NCBI GenBank assembly: GCA_026874595.1
Contig: CM049321.1
Span: 50,449,297 to 50,513,296, forward strand
Source: Sipunculus nudus
Lineage: Eukaryota; Annelida; Sipuncula; Golfingiida; Sipunculidae
Length of the DNA stretch: 64,000 nucleotides
Direction: 5' to 3'
Numbering within the stretch: position 1 is the stretch's first letter; each line of letters begins with the position of its first letter. The notes under the pieces are model-generated. The model had not been told where the DNA came from. It saw only the letters and a list, made by a program, of their open reading frames with translations, and ran no database searches. A program made the position numbers and the translations under genes. Positions 14,136 through 45,477 of the stretch are shown here, one piece after another.

Positions 14136-15039
14136 CTAAATTTCATAAAAAAACGTTTTCCGTTATTTGTTAGTTGGCTATCTCATTAATCCTTTTAATG
14201 GTTCTATAAAGTGTGCAGGAAAGTTACAATAACCGGGCTGCTTTTCGCCGGTCATAATGTCGGGAATATAATTCTCCCGAAGGAATCAGAAAGTATATTT
14301 CTACTTTATGTTGATAAATTTCGTACTCGTAAATGCAAATATATCTTCCATACCATGAACCCTTATCACATACTGGAGGGTGCATACAACTATAGACAGA
14401 CATACAGATAACATGATCGTACTTAATATTACTACTACAAAAACAAATCTTGCTAGAAGGTAAGATTGAGGCTGGTTAGGCCAAGAGGGTACAGCCGCCG
14501 CAATAGAAAAACAGAAGAATAAACAGCATTAAATCCCAATTGAAAATGGAGTGTAATTGTGCACAGAAATGGTTACATAGTGCTTAATTCAAACATTAAA
14601 TGGAAAATTGATCACACTCTTAAAATCAAAAGGAACGACCATGATTCTGATTGTATATTTCTAAAAAAGATGAAACCTGTGTTTCCAAAAATACAAATCG
14701 ATTGATAAGAAACCTTATCTGATAGAACACACATTTCACCGTGTGTTCCATGCAAATCAAGCTCCCTTTGAACGGTTCAGCAGGAAAATGACTCAGATTT
14801 CTTCAAAATTCTACTATATTATACGTACAGAAGATTCGACTAATTCCAGTTCTATAATAGATTTCTTTTCGCGTCAGTATGCGAAAAGAAATTAAGATAA
14901 ATCATTATCAGAAACATACAATTCATCTTTTTTGTTTCAACAGCTGTTCTAAACAGCTATCTCTGGTGATCGGAACCAAGGTCTCCTGTCAAAAGCTGAT
15001 GCATTACATATTCAAAAGAATTTCTCAAAACTGTTAAGG

Positions 15040-15372
15040 ATATCTTTTCAGGTCCGACACGCATGATTCCCATCAGAACATGTCCAACAAAAACGAAAAA
15101 CAAATCGGAAACGTCTCACTGGAGATCAATGTTGTCTGAAGTTCAATGAACGATTGTCATTGGATGTGGCTCCCATCTGTCTCCTTAGGAAGTTAAACCG
15201 CGGTCAACACGTTTATCAAATCGAGAACGGAAAAAAGAGCCACCCTCTGGAAATCACCTTAGATAATGTGACAAGAAAGGGTTTGATCATTCCGTATGAA
15301 AGAACGAATGATGGAAAAGCATATTTTCCCATATTTTCTGTCGTCTTTCTGTCTGCCCCTGCTTCCTTCTAG
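15040..15372 (+). pseudogene. Coding-like remnant shared by copies A and B
   Basis: Both copies keep the same reading frame over about 70 codons (here from about 15,085; in copy B about 43,550-43,715). Shared residues include NRKR, GDQCCL-FNERLS, APICL, KLNRG-HVY, and further on IIPYERTNDGKA. A TTTTCAG acceptor-like sequence precedes the frame in both. In copy B a stop replaces the residue after HVYLI, and in copy A an in-frame TGA lies 5' of the block. I recognise no domain. It may be the remains of a transposon protein or of a captured exon. Confidence 0.35.
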
Positions 15373-15397
15373 CTAATCTTTCCAACTCTCGTTTTAT

Positions 15398-15399
<2 letters not shown>

Positions 15400-15432
<33 letters not shown>

Positions 15433-15610
15433 CTTTTCATTTCTTCTTTTTTCTCTGTTTCTCTCCCTTTCTGTCTCTCTCCCTGAACCCCTCTTTAATT
15501 TTACTTCTGCCTCTGTTTCTCTCTGTTCTCTGTCTGTCTATCTGACTGTCTGTCTGTCTGCCTCTCTCTCTCTCTCTCTCTCTCTCTCATTCTTTCTCTC
15601 TCTGTGAATT
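15400..15610. repeat. (TC)n and (TCTG)n low-complexity block
   Basis: A pyrimidine-rich block with pure TC runs near 15,402-15,430 and 15,563-15,590 separated by CTGT-rich sequence. Copy B has the same block at 43,888-44,082. Confidence 0.9.
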
Positions 15611-16408
15611 TCCTGGAATATGAGCTCATAAATTAATCACTTATTCCTGCGTTTATTCAATTTCCCCAAAGGCTTTGACTTCGGGAGGGTTTGACTCAAG
15701 CGCTATACTAGGCACTAGGAGGTGACTGTACCAATTCAACTAGAAAGAAAGGACACGAATCGAAGCAAGGAACAAATGTAAATGCAGTTAAACATCCGTT
15801 TAACTGCTCACGTCATGCACATACGATAGGAGAGAGTGTATTTCCTTTGACATTGGTCCATCGGTCTAATAGATTGGATCAATATAATAACTACAATTCT
15901 CCTGTGTATTTGTGTATGTAATTTTGTGACAACTCGAATGTTAAGGTTGAATAAAGACGGAGAGGATAACGTTGGTCATAATTATTAATTATTTCTGGTA
16001 TTTAATTTAGCAACATCTCGTTTATAATATTTATCTGCAAACAAAAGGCGGTTGACGTTCTACTGTAAAGAAGATAACATTATAGTGTAATCAACTTTAT
16101 ATTGTATTTATCTTAATAAGCATTTCAGCCACGAAATCCATCATCAAAGTGCCATTAAACTAATGAATTCTCTCAAATAATGAAGTAATGAAATGTGTCT
16201 AACGTGGAGCTATTAACCATGTATTCAGTTAAATGATCGGTCAATTTAATTTGTAATATCCGTGAACTTTTACCCCGTTACGACGCTTTTTCCGTCCTCT
16301 GGCATCACATGTCAAGCAAATTCTAAATTATAATATAACATTATCAATATCTTTTAATCCCCGAAAGTGAATTTATTCCCTGAAATTGATTATTTTGCCA
16401 CAATTTCA

Positions 16409-16425
16409 CTTGTATGTAAAACTTT
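16409..16425. repeat. Target site duplication, 3' side of LINE
   Basis: CTTGTATGTAAAACTTT, 17 bp, is identical to 22,142-22,158. The uninterrupted copy B has one related site, CTCGTATGTTAAACTTT, at about 44,846. The duplication merges into the element's poly(T). Confidence 0.93.
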
Positions 16426-16435
16426 TTTTTTTTTT
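16423..16435 (-). other. LINE poly(A) tail (as plus-strand T run)
   Basis: Thirteen T residues, followed by G and further T-rich sequence, mark the 3' end of the minus-strand LINE. The first three T are shared with the target site duplication, which is typical of target-primed reverse transcription. Confidence 0.9.
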
Positions 16436-16703
16436 GTTTTTGTTTTAATCACCCTTATTGCAATATACTCTGCCTTTGACAAAACCATATCCACTCCGAC
16501 AGATAGAGGGGATGGAATGAATACTTCAAAATACTTATTACTTTTTATCTGTCAGCACAATAACAATTAAGAATATAATGAAAAATAAATAAACATACAA
16601 CATTAACATACAGATGAAATACTTTCTTTAATTTTTATAAATCTATCAAAGAAAATTTGATTCAAGTTAGGATATTTTAAATATTTCTGCATATATACAT
16701 GTT

Positions 16704-19700
16704 TCATAATATCTTGTGATACATATTGTCGTATTTTTTACTCTCTGATAGGCTAATTTCATTATATTTACAATGCATATTGTACTTAAAAATGGCATAC
16801 GTAGTTACTGATATTATGAAATTGTTCATTTTTACAAAATTACCATCCAGTGCGTATTTATGACCAATTACGAGCGTTTCCCAGTTTATCTGGATATGAA
16901 GTATTTTCATAATATTTTCCCATATCCCCCTCAATAATTTACATTCATACAGCATATGTTCAGCATTTTCATTTACATTACAAAATTTACAAAGATGGGA
17001 AATACTCGAGTTCCATTTGGACACGTTGGTACCTGTTGGAATAATGCCATGTAATAATTTGAAATTAAATTATGATAGTTTTTTCGTTTGCATGTTTTTA
17101 ATTTTACACTGATAGACTTTTGTCCAACTTATTATTTTTTTTTTATTTTTCCTGCAAAATAATTTGATGTTTGGGAGAAGACATATTTCTTCTTACTAAT
17201 TCACTGTAAAAGAATTTTGATTTTTTCTTATATATATAAATATTATGTTTACCAAGCGTGTATGTGTGTTCTAGATAAACCGATTTCTTTATAAACTGTT
17301 CTTTTGGAAATAGAGAAAGAGTCTTTTTAACGGCATTTTTAACCTTTATATATTCCGATATCCAATTGTGTTTTATTTTTAATTTCTTTAAAAGGTTGCT
17401 GACTGATATAAAAGTGCCATCATTGTTCAGAACATCTCGAATATAAATTATATTTTCTTCAACCCAAGCTTTAAAATATAAGCATTTATTATTGATCATA
17501 AATTCAGTGTTACCCCATAATGGTTGTTTTAAAATATCTTCTCGTGAAGTAATCTCTCTTTTAACCTTACATTTATTAAAAGCTAATATCACTTCTTTAT
17601 CAAACTGGGGTATATGTTTCAATATGCAAAACTGCTTTATTGATACACAGTTTGTGTTAAATACCCAGTCTGTATGGAGCCCACAGTTGTGTAAATAATA
17701 TTTAAAGATATGTTTCCATTTATTTTCTTCATAAAGTATTCTTGGTACCCATGCAGCTTTAAATGAAAGTAACCAACTATTGATATCGATCATTTTAAGA
17801 CCGCCTTCCTCTATATCTCTTATTAAAACTGACCTTTTAATTTTTTTCTGTTTTATTCCAAATATAGTCATAAATAACTTTGTTTATTCTTTTTTCGAAT
17901 CCGTCCGGAATTGGTAGTACCGAAGCTTGAAATGCTATTTTGGATAAAAGTATTGTCTTAACAATTAATATTTTTCCAATTAAACTTAGATTCCTCAACT
18001 TCCAAATTTTTATGTTATTCTCTATTTTATTTATTTTATCTTCCCAGTTTAGTTTTTCTATACATTTCTCATCATATTCAAACCAAATTCCTAAGCATTT
18101 CACTGGCCGTTTTGTCCATTTTACTCCTATTGGATCTTTATGCCTCTTATTATTTCCCAGATCTAAAGCGGTAGTTTTTTTCCATATTTAGTTTTAAACC
18201 AGCTAGGTTTCCAAATTCATAAATTTCCTTAAAGGCAGTTGAAACTGAGTTATCATTTCTCAGAGTCAAAGTAGTATCATCTGCATATTGGCTAAGTTTT
18301 ATTTCTTTACTGCCAAAAATAAAGCCGTTAATATTATCATTTGTTCGTATTTTTTGTGCCAATATTTCAACTGAAATAATTAAAAGTAATGCAGATACTG
18401 GACAGCCCTGTCGTATACCTCTTTTCATTACATTTTTTTGAAGATAACCATCCGTTATTTTTGGTAGTGAAAAGTGGGTTATTGTAAATAGTTTTAATCC
18501 AGTTGATAAAGTTCTGACCAAAAATAAATTTTTTTAAAAGTTTCAAACATAAAATTCCATTCTAAGCTATCAAAAGCCTTTGTAAAATCGAGAAAAATTA
18601 ACCCCCTTCTTTATTATATTTCTTAGCAAATTCAAATATGTCCGTGATTAGGCGTAAATTATTTCCGATGTATTTACCTTTAATATATCCGGTCTGATCT
18701 GTGTCAATTATTTTTGGTAAAATATTTTGCAACCTATTTGTTAATACTTGTGCTAATATTTTATAATCAGTGTTACAGAGGCTTATAGGTCTATAATTAT
18801 TTAAATTATATTTGTCTCCTTTCTTAAATAATATTGCTATTACAGCTGTACGCATTGTAGTACATAATTTATTGTGACGATACGATTCTATAAAAGCATT
18901 ATATAAAAACTCTTTTAGGTCATCCGAAAAAGTTACGTAGAATTCAATAGGGATGCCATCTAATCCTGGGGACTTGTTTTTCTTCATTTGAGTAAGAGCA
19001 ATTTTAATTTCATCCATTGCATTTCTTCATCACATATATCTTTATCTTCATCACTTATAACATTTAAAGATTTTATATTATTTTAGTATTTCTGTATCTC
19101 TTTCACACATGGATCGTGTGATGTATATAAGTTTTTGTAATAATTATTTATATGATTTAGTATTCCTTCATCATCTTCTATTACATTATTGTTTTCTCTG
19201 ATTTTATAAATAGTGTTATCTGACAGGTTTTTATTTTCCAGCTTGAAAAAGTATTTCGTACTCTTTTCCCCTTGGTCAATCCAATTAGCTCTACTACGTA
19301 TTTGAGCACATTTTGTTATATTATCAAATATTTCATTTTTTTTCTAATTCAAGTAAATGCTTTTCTTCTTTTAATCTTTCTATATCCTTAGCTATTGAAT
19401 TTAAACTAATAAGCTGTGAAATTTGTTTAATCCTTTTGTCTATCATAGCTTATCTACTATTTTTTTTCTTTTCTTTTCGATTTAGAGTAGTTAATACTTG
19501 CTTCTTTTATGTTAATTTTTATCATTTCCCAAGCTAGCCTCGCAGAATTGTGTTTATAACGGGTGTAACTAGAGGCAATGCAGTCTTTCATCAGCCCAAT
19601 ATAAATTGGATCATTTAATAGGCTGACGTTTAGTTTCCAATATCCCGGCCCTCTAATGCTTACTTTAAAATCCAGACATAACTTTATAGCTTTGTGATCT

Positions 19701-20428
19701 GACAGCCGATGTTCTTTTTGCTCTGACAGTACGTATTCACAGTCATAATTTAAGCAGTTCCAGAGTTCCGATTTAGAGATAAAGAAATAGTCAAGTCTAC
19801 TGCTTACATTCCTTTCTGACCATGTAAATCGGTTATTTAACCTGCCATAACAACTCCATATATCAGTTAGCTTTAAAGTATTTAACATATTTTCAATAGT
19901 ATTCTACTTTGGTCTGCCATATGTGACATCGTGCTCCTGTCATCATCTTGCAGACGACAATTAAAATCACCTCCCATAATGATACACCTTAAAGAATCAC
20001 TTTTTTGCCATTAACCATTTCTCTAAGTCCTCAAAGAAAAGTTTCCGTTCCCTTTCTTTGTTCGGTGCATAAACACATACTAAGCATAATTTTTTACCTT
20101 TGTATTCCGTATTCAACAGTATTTTTCTACCATTTTTACATCAATGAATATTTAAAATTTTTATATTTATTTTATTTGATAATAGTATTGCAACACTTCT
20201 GCTATGTGGTGACGATGCATGACTATGATATATTTGACCTTTCCATGAACTATTAATTATATTCGATGATATTTTAGTGCAATAGGTTTCTTGTAAAAAA
20301 GTAATATGAACATTTCTATATGTTAACCATGTATATAATTTCTTCCTTTTATCATAATTATTAAGACCTCTTATATTTAATGAACATATATTTAATTGTC
20401 TATTCAAATCTGTCATGTGGTTTTCCAT
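16704..20428 (-). pseudogene. LINE ORF2: endonuclease, reverse transcriptase, zinc knuckle (broken)
   Basis: At about 3.7 kb this is the size expected of an L1/Tx1 ORF2 (about 1,240 codons), and it begins with an ATG at 20,428. Order of domains: an AP-type endonuclease (20,428 to about 19,640: SLNIRGLN, FLQET, VCVYAPN, GGDFN, RLDYFF, LSDHKA); a linker (19,440-19,060, NWIDQGEKSTKYFF); the reverse transcriptase (about 19,017-17,850: SPGLDGIPIEFY, NNYRPISLCNTDYKI, FLDFTKAFDSLEW, RGIRQGCPVSA, QYADD at about 18,280); a thumb and connection region (18,103-17,143); and a knuckle C-x2-C-x7-H-x4-C (about 16,941-16,991). An in-frame TGA follows NIH at 20,141. Two opposite shifts near 20,010 and 19,890 leave the GGDFN part in another frame, and more shifts occur near 19,320, 18,600-18,500 and 17,100. 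The catalytic aspartates of the RT that I can see are intact. Confidence 0.9.
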
Positions 20429-20475
20429 TGTCTTTCGTTTTTATATCCTTTATTTATTTTTTTTTTTGTACTTTG

Positions 20476-21806
20476 TTAATAATATTCTCCATCAATTTCT
20501 TCAAAAACACGATCTTCGACGACACCTCTTTGTTCAGATTGTGGGCTAAAGTCATATCTGCGAGATTTCATTGAAACTCTTAAGCTTGTATGTTTTTGCT
20601 GATTTGTTGACTGTTCGGATAGTTTTCGTTTCGGTGTTCCCATGCCTTGAAAAAACTGGTTGGACTCTTGGTCTTGTGCTGAGGCTATATTGCTAGTTGC
20701 TTTTATCTCTGTCATGATTTTCCGCACTATAAAAGGATCTTATTTTCTCAAGTGTGGCACCATATAAGTTCCTACCAGGCCATGCATCCACCTTGGTGAC
20801 TCTGGAGAGAAATTTGGACAGCCCTGTTCCCCACTGTTTATCTTGAACTGTGTGGGCGATCGGTGCTGTACCTGATTTCATGAGAGCTTCTTTGAATTCA
20901 GGGATCTGTTCTGCTTTCTCTAACAGGATATTTTCCAAAATTTCAATTTCATGTCTGTCCACAGATTCATCAGAGTGCAAGATCTGGCAAATTCTCTTGG
21001 CAACTCCTGCATGTTTAGCGTTTTCAATTTCATTGGCCAACGCATCTTGGTCCAATTCATATGCGCATCTATAATGAAACGCATGTTCAGCGCTTTTAAA
21101 AGTTTTCCCGTACATTTCCAAAGAACAAGGGAAGGAGTTGGAGAGAATATCATCATGGCCAGACACAATTTCCATTGATTGATCAGGTATGTAATGCTCA
21201 CAGTATTTGCTACCTGGTTTGTGACCTTTCTTGTGACATACTATACAGGTCAGGTCCTTGAACTGATCATTATGAAAAAAATCTGCACTGAAATGGTCCA
21301 ATTTGTCCATTTCGTGGTAGTGGGTTTGCCAAAGGCGATTTCACAAAAACAAATCTGTTTCCATTTTTGTAATGTGTCAGGAGTCCTTCTTTTGTCCCTT
21401 CATATTGATATTTTATTTCAGAAAGTAACTCAAGCTTATATTCTGACTGTAAGTGTTCAACAATAGATTGATTGTCAAATGAGAGGGGGACATCTGCAAT
21501 TGTGACTTTGATGGGTGCTGGGAAATTGTCTGAATTTCTTGCACTATAAGGGTTTGTGTCGGAAAGTTGTACAAACTTATTCCGTAGAGACAGTCCCTCT
21601 GTCAAAAGTTTTATTCTTGCATCAATTGATTTCACATATATTCTCCACAGATTTCTTATTTTTTGTGCACCATCAATATTGTCCGAGCCAACAACCTGAG
21701 CTGCAGCAGAACAAACTTCATAAGGTCTCATAGAGTTTTTAATGTTTGTATCGGAAAGCACAGTGTCATTTTTAAAGAACACGGGCAAAGCAGAGTCGTG
21801 TTCCAT
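20476..21806 (-). pseudogene. LINE ORF1: RRM-like, CCHC knuckle, NADAR domain (frameshifted)
   Basis: The first frame (21,806-21,270, ATG, 178 aa) has a conserved gag-like segment (residues 46-88, with RNLWRIYVKS and LSDTNPY) and an RRM-like fold (about 98-176, starting PIKVTIADVPLSF). Seven T residues at about 21,275 break the frame; removing one T phase would join it to the next (21,310-20,693, 205 aa). That part holds a zinc knuckle C22-x2-C25-x4-H30-x6-C37 and then a NADAR domain (about residues 51-191). The NADAR part has SNSFPCSL, the conserved Glu in SAEHAF (73-78), D157-x2-W-G161 and PGRNLYGATLEKIR (178-191). A third frame (20,727-20,476) gives a basic Ser/Gln-rich tail with TPKRKLSEQ. 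RNA binding is expected of the first half. Nucleotide or ADP-ribose chemistry is inferred from the NADAR family. It lies 48 bp upstream of ORF2, as in other two-ORF LINEs. Confidence 0.85.
20738..21160 (-). other. NADAR (YbiA-like) domain within LINE ORF1
   Basis: About 140 residues follow the NADAR pattern in order: an SNxxP start with a YGKTFKSAEHAF helix carrying the conserved Glu, a helix rich in Ala with AKHAGVAKR, a long helix ending EFKEALMKSGTAPIAH, the VQDKQWGTG strand (D-x2-W-G), and a C-terminal PGRNLYGATLEKIR helix. No stop or frameshift interrupts it, in contrast to ORF2. NADAR proteins include the YbiA N-glycosidase type, and some reverse ADP-ribosylation of guanine in DNA. Which activity, if any, this domain has is unknown. 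A chance match is unlikely because all the blocks are in the right order and spacing. Confidence 0.82.
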
Positions 21807-22141
21807 TCTGACAATTCTATCGTGTATTCAGCGCTTCGGTGAACAGGGTACCTGAACACGCGCCACACAAATCTGTGCCCTAACCGCAGGGCTTTCACTG
21901 AATGGTTCACTGAGCAGACAATCACAGGATCCAATAATGCAATTCAATAATATTACTGTCAGTTTTACAAAGAATTCTTTGCAAAATTTACCTTATATTT
22001 TTACATCATTCGAAACTGTCCCTCATGGGTCTCTCAGCAAATTTTCATCAATATTCAGCTGGTAATACAGGTATAATTTGCCATAGAAAGAGAGAGTCTC
22101 TCAGAGCACACGTCCACTCACAACGAGCACACAAGCGCTCT
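21807..22141 (-). promoter_or_regulatory. LINE 5' UTR, presumed internal promoter
   Basis: A stretch of 335 bp from the target site duplication to the ORF1 ATG. It must carry the element's own promoter if this is a full-length copy, but I see no specific motif. A GA-rich AGAGAGAGTCTCTC palindrome lies near 22,090. Confidence 0.5.
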
Positions 22142-22158
22142 CTTGTATGTAAAACTTT
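22142..22158. repeat. Target site duplication, 5' side of LINE
   Basis: CTTGTATGTAAAACTTT, identical to 16,409-16,425. Sequence downstream (ACGCC-GCAGCGCTTTAG) continues the dispersed repeat exactly where copy B continues at about 44,863. Confidence 0.93.
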
Positions 22159-22735
22159 ACGCCGGCAGCGCTTTAGAAAACAAATTCTGTGTGACAAGTT
22201 TTAGAATCCAATAATGCTAATGAGGTCTTAGCAATTTCTTTTCCAAGACAGGATAAAATATATATTAACAGTTCCCTGATTTGCCACTCACAGCAATTTT
22301 TTTTTTTATTATTATTATATTAAACTAGGCCTCCAGACCTAATGCGAACCTGTGCAATGGGATATACATGAGGTATTTTGCTTCCATGCTGGACCGTTAC
22401 TTTTCAAGTACATGTTTGACATGTATATGTACAATGCAAGCACTGAGCATTTTGAACCAAAGTACAATACCAATTACACAAACGTCACTGCTGAACTATT
22501 TGCATAGGTGTAAACAACGCAAAATGAATATAAGTGGCACAACCAGTCTTATGTACGAGGAAGCCATTAAAGATGTATGGACATAAGCAATTTCAGGCTT
22601 CAAACCACTCTTTGGCTATTTGCACAGATGCATGAAATAAAAAGATACAGGTAGATGAAAGCGATTATGTGTATCCGCCGAAATCAGAGTAGTACAGGTG
22701 AAGTGAGTCATCGATTGAGTGGTAAGGGGAAATAG
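22142..22735 (+). repeat. 4-kb interspersed repeat copy A, right part
   Basis: Continues copy A beyond the LINE and matches 44,846-45,430. Both end at GAGTGGTAAGGGGAAATAGA, after which the flanks differ. A short (ATT)n or poly(T) tract sits at 22,300. Confidence 0.85.
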
Positions 22736-22859
22736 AAAAATACTAATGATAACATAGTTCAACTGGGATGTGCTTAGTCAAAGGTTTTATAGAATAATTA
22801 AAAATGCTTGGGAAGCAGACCCACGCAAAATACTCCATTTTGATTGGTTTTATAGGCAA

Positions 22860-42600: not shown

Positions 42601-43549
42601 ATGCATATGTTCCTGTTTGTTATATGTTTAAAGTGTAAACTAATTTTTTTACCCATATGTAAACTTGTCCAGCACTACCAGAAACAATCTGTTTAATTGT
42701 TCTATAAAGTGTGAAGGAAAATCACAATCAACAGGCTGCTCTCGCCGGTTATCATGCCAGGAATTAAATTCTCCCGCAGGCATCAGAAAAATCTTCTCAC
42801 ATATATTTGCATATGCTTATATTTCTTCCATACCATGAACTCTTATCACGGACTATAGGATGCATACAACTGAATAGACATACAGATAACATAACCAGAC
42901 TTTATATTAGTACTGCAAAATCATATCTAGCTACAAAGGTACCATTAAGGCTTATAGGCTAAGAGGATACAGCCGTCGCAAATGACAAACAGAAGAAAAA
43001 AAAAGAATCAAAACTCCATTGAAACTGGATTGTAACACGCGGTTGTGAACTGTGCACTGAAATGGTTACACAGTACTTAATGCAAACGTAAAGGAATAGT
43101 GGATCACACTCCTAAAATAAAAAAAGAACGACCTGGATTCTGATTGTATATTTTCAAAAGATTAAACCAATGATTCCAAAAACACAAAATGATTTATACG
43201 AAACCTAATTCGACATAACACACATTTTATCTTGTTTTCCATCAAATCAAGCTCCCTAGTCACCGCTACAGCAGGAAAATGACTAAAATTTCTTCAATAC
43301 TCTAATATATTATACGTAAAAAAAGATTCTACAAATTGCAGTTCTTTAATAGATTTCTTCTAATATCAGCATGCGGAGAGAAATCAAGATAAATCATTAT
43401 CAGAAACATACAATTTATCTTTTTTGTTTGACCAGCTGTTCCCAATAGCTATATCTGATGATTGAAACCAAGGTCTCCTGTCAAAAGCTGACGCATTACA
43501 TATTCAAAAGAATATGGGATAAGAAATCAAATATATATTTCAGGTCCTA

Positions 43550-43715
43550 CACGCATGGTTCTCACCAGAACATGTCCGACAAAACCAAAACAAACCGGAA
43601 ACGTCCCAGAGGAGATCAATGTTGTCTGGAATTCAATGAACGATTGTCATGGGATCTGGCTCCTATCTGTCTCCCTGAGAAGTTAAACCGCGGTCATCAC
43701 GTTTATCTAATCTAG
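43550..43715 (+). pseudogene. Coding-like remnant in copy B
   Basis: Same frame as the remnant at 15,085-15,372, with NRKRPRGDQCCLEFNERLSW, APICLPEKLNRG and a terminal stop after HVYLI. Similarity continues at DNA level past the stop. Unassigned. Confidence 0.35.
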
Positions 43716-43887
43716 AACGGAAAAAGAGATTCCCTCTGGAAATCACCGTAGATAATGTGTCAAGAAAGGTTTTTGATTATTCCATATGAAAGAACGAATG
43801 ATGGAAAAGCACATTTTCCCTATCTGTCGTGTTTCTGTCTGCCCCTGCTTCCGTCTTTGCCAATTTTCCATCTCTCGTTTTATTACT

Positions 43888-44041
43888 CCCTCTCTCTCTC
43901 TCTCTCGCTCTCGCTCTCAGTCACTTCCCCTTTTATTTCTTCTTTTTTCTATGTTTCTCTCCCGTTCTGTCTCTCTCCCTGATCCCCTCTTTAATTTTAC
44001 TTTTGCTTCCATTCCTCTTTTTTCTCTGTCTGTCTATCTGA

Positions 44042-44082
<41 letters not shown>
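43888..44082. repeat. (TC)n and (CTGT)n block in copy B
   Basis: Pyrimidine-rich, with TC runs at both ends and seven CTGT units near 44,040-44,067. Equivalent to 15,400-15,610. Confidence 0.9.
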
Positions 44083-44083
<1 letters not shown>

Positions 44084-45477
44084 GGTAATTTTCCTTTAAT
44101 ATGAGCTAATAAATTAATCACATATTCCTGCGTTTATTCAATTTCCCCAAAGGCTTTGGCTTCGGGAGGGTTGGACTCAAGCACCTAAACTAGGCACTAG
44201 GAGGTGACCTGTACCAATTCAACTAAAAAAGAAAGGACACGAATGGAAGCAAGGGACAAATGTAAATGCATCATCCGTTTAACTGCTCACGTCATGAACA
44301 TACTATAAGAGAGGGTGTATTTCCATTCGGCATTGGCCCATCGGTCTAATAGATCGGATCAATATAATAAATACAATTCTCTTGTGTATTTGTGTGTGTG
44401 ATTTTGTGACAATTCGAATGTTAAGACTGTATAAAAACGGAGAGGGCAACGTTGGTCATAATTATTAATTATTTCTGGTATTTAATTGAGCAACCTCTCG
44501 TTTATAATATATATCTGCAAACAAAAGGCGGTTGACGCTCTACTGTAAAGAAGATAACATTATAATGTAATCAACTTTATATTGTATTTATCTTAATTAG
44601 CCTTTCAGCCACGAAATCCATCAACAAATTGCTATTAAAGTAATGAATTCTCTCAAATAATGAAGTAATGAAAAGTGTCTATCGTGGAGTAATTAACCAT
44701 GTATTAAGTTAAAATGATAGGGTGCTTTTTCCGTCCTCTGGCATCAAATGTCAAGCAAATTCTAAATTATAATATAACATTATCAATATTTTTTAATCCT
44801 CGATAGTAAATTTTCCCTGAAGGTGATTATTTCTCCACAATTTCACTCGTATGTTAAACTTTACGCCAGCAGCGCTTTAGAAAACAAACACTGTGTGAAT
44901 CCAATAATGCAAATGAGGTCTTAGCAAGTTCTTTTCCAAGACAAGATACAATAAATATTAACAGTTTCCTGATTTGCCACTTGCAGCAGTTTTTATTATT
45001 ATTATTATTATATTAAACTAGGCCTACAGGCCTAATGCAAATCTTTGCAATGGGATACACATCAGGAATATTGCTTCCATGCTGGACCGTTACTTTTCAA
45101 GTACATGTTTGACATGTATATGTACAATGCAAGCACTGAACATTTTGAACCAAAGTGCATATACCAATTACACTAACGTGACTGCTTAAATATTTGCATA
45201 GGCGTACACAACACAAAAATGAATATAGATTGCACAACCAACATGTGTAAGAGAAAGCCATTTAAGATGTAAGAACATAAACAATTTCAGGCTTCAATCC
45301 ACTCTCTGGCTATGTGCACAAATGCATGAAACAACAAGATGCAGGTAGTTGAAAGCGACTATGTGTATCCGCTGAAATCAGAGTAGTACAGGTGAGGTGA
45401 GGCATCGATTGAGTGGTAAGGGGAAATAGAGTGAGATAGATGTCTGCCATGTAAACATGATTATAAATTGCACCAAC

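Follow-up and report, generated by a model that had tools for sequence, protein, structure and literature searches.

The ORF1 proteins of LINEs are RNA chaperones. NADAR domains of the YbiA family are reported from the Pol protein of Ectocarpus Gypsy elements and, via Repbase, from several Crassostrea gigas families of Tx1 LINEs, where they are part of ORF1, and the role proposed in the same work for retroelement NADARs is the processing of RNA intermediates (PMC12477816); since that report, the presence of a NADAR in ORF1 of a Tx1 LINE is already known. Those NADARs that have been assayed hydrolyse N2-guanine-ADP-ribose (PMC11543638, PMC11125620). The catalytic residues are E43, K50 and E125 (Phytophthora nicotianae numbering), and D130 and W133 are among the ligand contacts. 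The lysine K50, which corresponds to K95 of E. coli C7, is essential, although the K95R form of C7 is active in vitro; at the third catalytic position DarT1-linked NADARs have Asp and phage NADARs have His (PMC11543638). The phage protein gp30.3 hydrolysed guanine-ADP-ribose in vitro (PMC11125620), and clams are reported to possess a guanine ADP-ribosyltransferase, CARP-1, with N2-guanine activity described in six edible clams (PMC11209040).

Here we examine a LINE of the sipunculan Sipunculus nudus whose ORF1 carries a NADAR. It lies in the window, by which we mean the whole 64,000-nucleotide stretch of DNA that was analysed. Comparison of its copies and relatives leads us to place a probability of roughly 0.55 on the reading that, in this lineage, the domain is a worn, reader-type binding module descended from a hydrolase, and that its knuckle-NADAR part has been reused by host TRIM-like genes.

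Structure of the element

The features of the element, all on the minus strand of the window, are:

16426-22141, minus: L1-type LINE insertion, full-length, about 5.7 kb, ends approximate
22142-22158, minus: target-site duplication, 5'-side copy, about 17 bp, the same word recurring at 16409-16425
16409-16425, minus: target-site duplication, 3'-side copy, past the A-rich tail
21270-21806, minus: N part of ORF1 with its start codon and tandem RRM, in a frame of its own (open frame 21270-21827)
21200-21247, minus: zinc knuckle CX2CX4HX2GX3C (P0001 residues 22-37)
20735-21139, minus: NADAR domain (P0001 residues 58-192)
20476-20739, minus: ORF1 tail, an open frame and the third frame in the window copy
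16704-20440, minus: ORF2 remnants from Pfam matches, with endonuclease, reverse transcriptase and zf-RVT pieces in several frames
44843-44862, minus: empty-site paralogue from flank matches, where both LINE flanks adjoin without the LINE

The limits of the insertion follow from dispersed copies elsewhere in the genome, three of which (L009, L010, L013) start at window positions 22136-22138 and two of which (L009, L013) stop at 16422-16430. A diverged, LINE-free duplicate of the LINE flanks, representing the empty site, is found inside the same window at 42686-45430: positions 14188-16425 match 42686-44862 at 82%, positions 22139-22736 match 44843-45430 at 88%, and the word of the target-site duplication occurs there once more, with two differences. 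ORF1 of the window copy carries frameshifts both before and after the NADAR, and the tail is joined to the NADAR in one frame in the intact copies L006 and L008. Within ORF2 the Pfam endonuclease pieces fall under the cut-off; the reverse transcriptase piece matches, among solved structures, the LINE-1 ORF2 protein (PDB) with an E value of 4e-16 and R2 with 5e-6, and L024, a member of the sister family described below, matches human L1 ORF2p at 1e-57 and R2 at about 2e-10. Among solved structures ORF2 is thus much closer to the ORF2 proteins of L1 than to R2, and by its ORF2 type, target-site duplication and dispersed copies the window element is an L1-type LINE. The label Tx1 is kept as the word of the original prediction and of PMC12477816.

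Six copies on sequence C16 of the same genome (L001-L004, L014 and L017, 50.3-51.5 Mb) contain the window LINE together with its flanks and are 97-99% like the window. As separate insertions these were rejected, since L014 and L017 match the window past the element on both sides and L002-L004 match it past the 5' end, the stretches compared ending inside the element; because they match beyond the element, the six were counted as one duplicated locus. The C16 segment with the LINE (present six times, among the loci read, within about 1.2 Mb) is a recently multiplied chromosomal stretch.

Identity of the ORF1 domain

The original prediction had placed a NADAR inside the ORF1 of this LINE and proposed a profile search of the translation as a check. 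The domain is genuine: the window protein scores 62 bits against the Pfam NADAR profile PF08719, above the curated cut-off of 35.1, the domain of the window's family has the YbiA fold, and both the conserved Glu (in SAEHAF; E43 in the numbering of the P. nicotianae structure 8bau) and the D-x2-WG motif are present. The window protein alone found no NADAR among solved structures at E values up to 1; a profile of the family found 8bau and the YbiA structure 2b3w. Fold comparison of the homologue P0003 places RRMs at residues 6-92 and 94-183, and residues 378-445, which form the ORF1 tail, are disordered in the model (pLDDT below 50). The build of ORF1 is RRM-RRM-zinc knuckle-NADAR-tail, in an L1/Tx1-type LINE. 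Assignment as a riboflavin-intermediate N-glycosidase was rejected, the equivalog TIGR02464 scoring 55.9 for the window protein and 57.3 for L006 with a cut-off of 73.7.

Replacement of active-site residues

Active-site positions were read from rows aligned to 8bau, and are given here in the order E43, K50, E125, D130 and W133. The window copy has E, C, H, D and W; L006 and L008, the two copies of its family (family 1) with a fully open ORF1, have E, C, L, D and W; L022 and L027 of a sister family have E, R, L, D and L; L033 has E, K, Y, D and L, and L035 has E, R, N, D and W. Throughout family 1, K50 is Cys in all 18 copies examined, and E125 is His in 12 (the window copy included, and six of the 12 being the one duplicated locus) and Leu in the other six. 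The DarT1-type catalytic Asp (C7 D171) is absent from the family, which has His or Leu there; among the residues that mark hydrolase competence its Glu at E43 is retained and a Lys at K50, where Arg is tolerated in vitro, is missing. To our knowledge there has been no test of Cys at K50/K95. In this alignment the window's family has lost residues that studied NADARs need for guanine-ADP-ribose hydrolysis (K50 gives way to Cys, E125 to His and in some copies to Leu), and the sister family has lost more of them (K50 gives way to Arg, E125 and W133 to Leu), E43 and D130 being kept in both. The Leu subfamily at E125 may reflect one hitch-hiking change, and the His-type copies need not be dead at this position, since His is the phage type and gp30.3 is active in vitro.

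Relatives from other assemblies include some with the full E/K/E set (such as P0025, P0026, P0029 and P0030) and Lys-His types (P0017, P0018 and P0020), and three fusions of L1 type (P0024, P0031 and P0032) also keep E/K/E. Among 33 Tx1-type rows, Glu is found at E43 in 31 of 32, Lys at K50 in 21 of 32, Trp at W133 in 30 of 33 and Asp at D130 in 23 of 33; at E125, 14 have Glu, 12 His and 7 another residue.

These patterns bear directly on the two options of the original prediction, which held that the NADAR could be erasing ADP-ribose or could use its fold only for binding. As an active eraser, it would strip guanine ADP-ribose from element RNA, cDNA or target DNA and so evade a host guanine ADP-ribosyltransferase. 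The hydrolysis of N2-guanine-ADP-ribose by the NADARs assayed to date (PMC11543638, PMC11125620) and the complete sites of these E/K/E relatives fit such a role, for which a bivalve N2-guanine writer of the CARP-1 type would be a fitting opponent (PMC11209040). The window copy itself has E43, D130 and W133 intact and the phage-type His, which are also points against reading its site as worn. We nevertheless consider active erasing rather unlikely: K50 is invariably Cys in family 1, E125 is Leu in both of its fully open copies, and the sister family, having lost E125 and W133, is still under purifying selection (see below). With these replacements erasing is not the likelier reading for the window's family, for which we favour binding, the option of the two that agrees better with the residues found. 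The eraser view would have a fair chance for relatives whose sites are complete, and some for the His-type copies.

A different possibility is that the fold serves ORF1 multimerisation or the docking of a host factor and holds no nucleotide ligand. Three contacts to ADP-ribose, R79, Y84 and R93, do vary more than most columns (ranks 95, 103 and 105 of 124 by entropy), and the pocket has been altered in several lineages, with at least nine changes at E125 and at least eight at K50 on a 43-row tree, for which the third residue of YbiA was manually entered as Glu to correct a shift of one position in the alignment. E43, in contrast, which contacts the distal ribose, is nearly invariant and ranks ninth of the 124 columns, and of those that precede it three are nearly empty; this suggests that a ligand is still held and makes a purely structural role decidedly improbable.

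The reader-type binding module that we prefer would operate inside the ORF1-RNA particle, where its ligand would be ADP-ribose or a modified nucleotide, or else a partner protein. Since E43 stays, a ligand would still be bound, and hydrolysis would be lost or low in the window's family. The ancestral domain would have been a hydrolase, one that may still be in use in other LINE families. A point against this reading is that mutations of pocket residues in two NADARs of C. elegans SNA-3 impair its function (PMC9303266), so pockets of this kind can matter in an RNA setting.

Selection on the NADAR

The sister family, which lacks the Trp of the catalytic site, is under strong purifying selection: between L022 and L027, both with Leu at 125 and 133, pN is 0.21 and pS 0.89 (saturated) over 129 NADAR codons, with a Fisher p of 6e-32 on site numbers worked back from rounded pN and pS. 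Comparison of L006 with L011, an old copy that is a pseudogene with seven stops, gives omega values of 0.21 (NADAR), 0.07 (knuckle), 0.41 (N part) and 0.53 (tail). Where dS is unsaturated, the omega of the NADAR is only moderately low (0.55 for L006/L035 and 0.40 for L027/L035), and between families dN is higher in the NADAR than in the N part (0.57 versus 0.39 for L006/L022; 0.25 versus 0.18 for L022/L027). Values of dN/dS within family 1 were rejected as evidence, many NADAR values against L006 being near or above 1 or undefined; they are unusable because the copies are mostly 96-99% alike and too young.

On these codon comparisons the NADAR of ORF1 evolves under purifying selection, its fold retained while the hydrolase site went, although ORF1 has parts under tighter constraint. 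The original prediction had seen a hint of selection in the unbroken NADAR frame of the window copy; an intact frame alone proves nothing, and it is the dN/dS between families that bears the claim out. That the NADAR is idle and merely carried along in ORF1, as the life of knuckle-only relatives without it (L029-L032) might allow, is highly improbable in the face of this selection, of amino-acid changes fewer than in the ORF1 tail and of retention of the domain across diverse ORF1s.

Distribution in the genome and in other assemblies

A search of the 1.43 Gb genome with the window protein, in which 150 of 164 candidates were scored, gave at least 106 match rows, a figure in which pieces of single copies are counted separately and TRIM-like genes are included. 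The Pfam NADAR profile gave at least 141 (150 of 204 candidates scored), and had matches in 3 of 14 control genomes. The ORF1 N part has 151 matches, and cross-matching of 88 of these with 86 of the 106 rows found by the window protein, both chosen by hand and with a few loci appearing twice as pieces, placed a NADAR match downstream in 50 of the 88; of the matches above 40% identity only one lacks it. The domain is therefore common to other copies, and the one-off fusion that the original prediction had considered as an alternative does not apply. Four of the 38 cross-matched N-part matches without a NADAR match were read (L029-L032): they are open RRM-knuckle ORF1s of more distant relatives, three of them near-identical, with no NADAR beside them among the Pfam NADAR matches listed for the genome. 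On an unrooted tree of the N part these four rows separate from 33 others with support of 100/100, one of the 33 "NADAR" rows (P0005) having no NADAR match of its own; the split fits one gain or one loss of the domain.

Public data provided 22 homologues and 8 further proteins. In P0024, P0031 and P0032, and in L044 of the own genome, a NADAR follows an L1-like ORF1 that is, by eye, of different build. These fusions lie outside the Tx1-type clade on NADAR trees from which the near-copies L008, L024 and L038 and also P0005 are excluded (94/93; 95/85 in the tree with stand-alone NADARs), from which it follows that LINE ORF1s probably took up a NADAR more than once. In L044 itself (C7:46705950-46707200) the ORF1 ends in a NADAR with Asn at E43, Arg at K50 and Asp at E125.

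Several further NADAR loci were seen in the genome. L042 and L043 (C14:61.54 Mb and C4:22.38 Mb, also C17:19.12 Mb) are dispersed frames, almost the same in sequence, in which an unassigned end follows a canonical NADAR, perhaps another NADAR-carrying repeat family. At C15 13.10-13.22 Mb several partial NADAR matches lie close together and cover two sections of the profile, and these might be exons of a repeated host gene. Included in the Pfam matches are the stand-alone genes L045 and L046 (C5:80.12 Mb and C3:77.79 Mb), with near-canonical pockets and, in L046, Asp in place of the third-position Glu; both cluster with the oomycete NADAR 8bau (97/86).

TRIM-like host genes ending in a NADAR

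Five open frames of 541-676 codons end in a NADAR, which scores 74-95 bits against Pfam in all five. Four (L034, L039, L040 and L041) are located at 28.22-28.93 Mb of C5, and L036 is on C3. RING and B-box are above the Pfam cut-offs in L034, L039 and L040 and the B-box only in L041; L036 has neither above cut-off and is TRIM-like by eye only. The frame of L034 is:

132-2159 of the locus, minus: open TRIM-like frame with terminal knuckle-NADAR module (L034)

The knuckle CX2CX4HX2GX3C stands ahead of the NADAR in four of the five genes, as it occurs in 34 of 36 Tx1-type ORF1 rows and in all four NADAR-less relatives; the three L1-type fusions lack it. The third catalytic position is Gln in all five genes, and in all six pairs of the four C5 genes the knuckle and NADAR together have an omega of 0.11-0.23, which denotes purifying selection. 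In the tree with stand-alone NADARs of the own genome, Tx1 LINEs and TRIM rows form a clade (95/85) apart from the stand-alone genes and other fusions; support for the TRIM rows next to the LINE rows is only 93/84, and a tree uniting the Tx1 LINE rows without them is not rejected (p-AU 0.346). Because of the shared knuckle and this clade, the simplest reading is that the knuckle-NADAR of the TRIM-like genes came from the LINE, sister groups being possible at that p-AU.

Primates reused cyclophilin at the end of a TRIM protein in TRIMCyp. The host may likewise have given its TRIM-like proteins a terminal knuckle-NADAR module taken from the element, and by this analogy we tentatively suggest, while holding it doubtful, that these genes are restriction factors of the TRIMCyp kind, their targeting end built from the knuckle and NADAR of the element's own ORF1, with the NADAR as the interface of an element-host contest. 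Were this true, such an interface would explain selection on the fold despite decay of the hydrolase site.

Comparison with known systems

The Tx1 LINEs of C. gigas resemble the present element in having a NADAR in ORF1, which is described for several of their families from divergent Repbase hits; the accessible part of their account is without catalytic-residue, selection or host-gene analysis, and they are compared here by description only (PMC12477816). The Ectocarpus Gypsy Pol shares a NADAR in a retroelement and differs in being from an LTR element, another protein and another lineage (PMC12477816). What is new here is the Cys/His/Leu pocket, the selected sister family, the NADAR-less relatives and the TRIM-knuckle-NADAR genes. 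No earlier report of a worn site under selection, of NADAR-less relatives or of TRIM-knuckle-NADAR genes was found in the open-licence PMC literature. A selected NADAR in ORF1 links retrotransposition to the chemistry of nucleic-acid ADP-ribosylation, and full-site relatives beside a worn-site family offer a ready comparison of eraser and reader.

With YbiA and the P. nicotianae NADAR (2b3w and 8bau), the window's family has in common the fold, E43, D130 and W133 (PMC11543638); it differs in the Cys at K50, the His or Leu at E125, changes at R79, W89 and R93, and the fusion of its NADAR to RRMs and a knuckle. The phage NADAR of gp30.3 has His for the catalytic Glu, as does the window copy; it is a phage protein, likened here by description (PMC11125620). 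SNA-3 of C. elegans, with three NADARs and a part in SL1 trans-splicing, is likewise an animal NADAR protein in an RNA-protein setting, and the key residues of its first NADAR are not conserved, like the worn site here; it is a nematode host protein, impaired when residues of its second and third NADARs are mutated (PMC9303266). The TRIM-knuckle-NADAR genes provide a testable case of a host gene made from a LINE ORF1 module. Their analogue is TRIMCyp, also a TRIM gene with a captured terminal domain, in which that domain is cyclophilin and the hosts are primates, whereas a restriction function of the TRIM-NADAR genes is putative.
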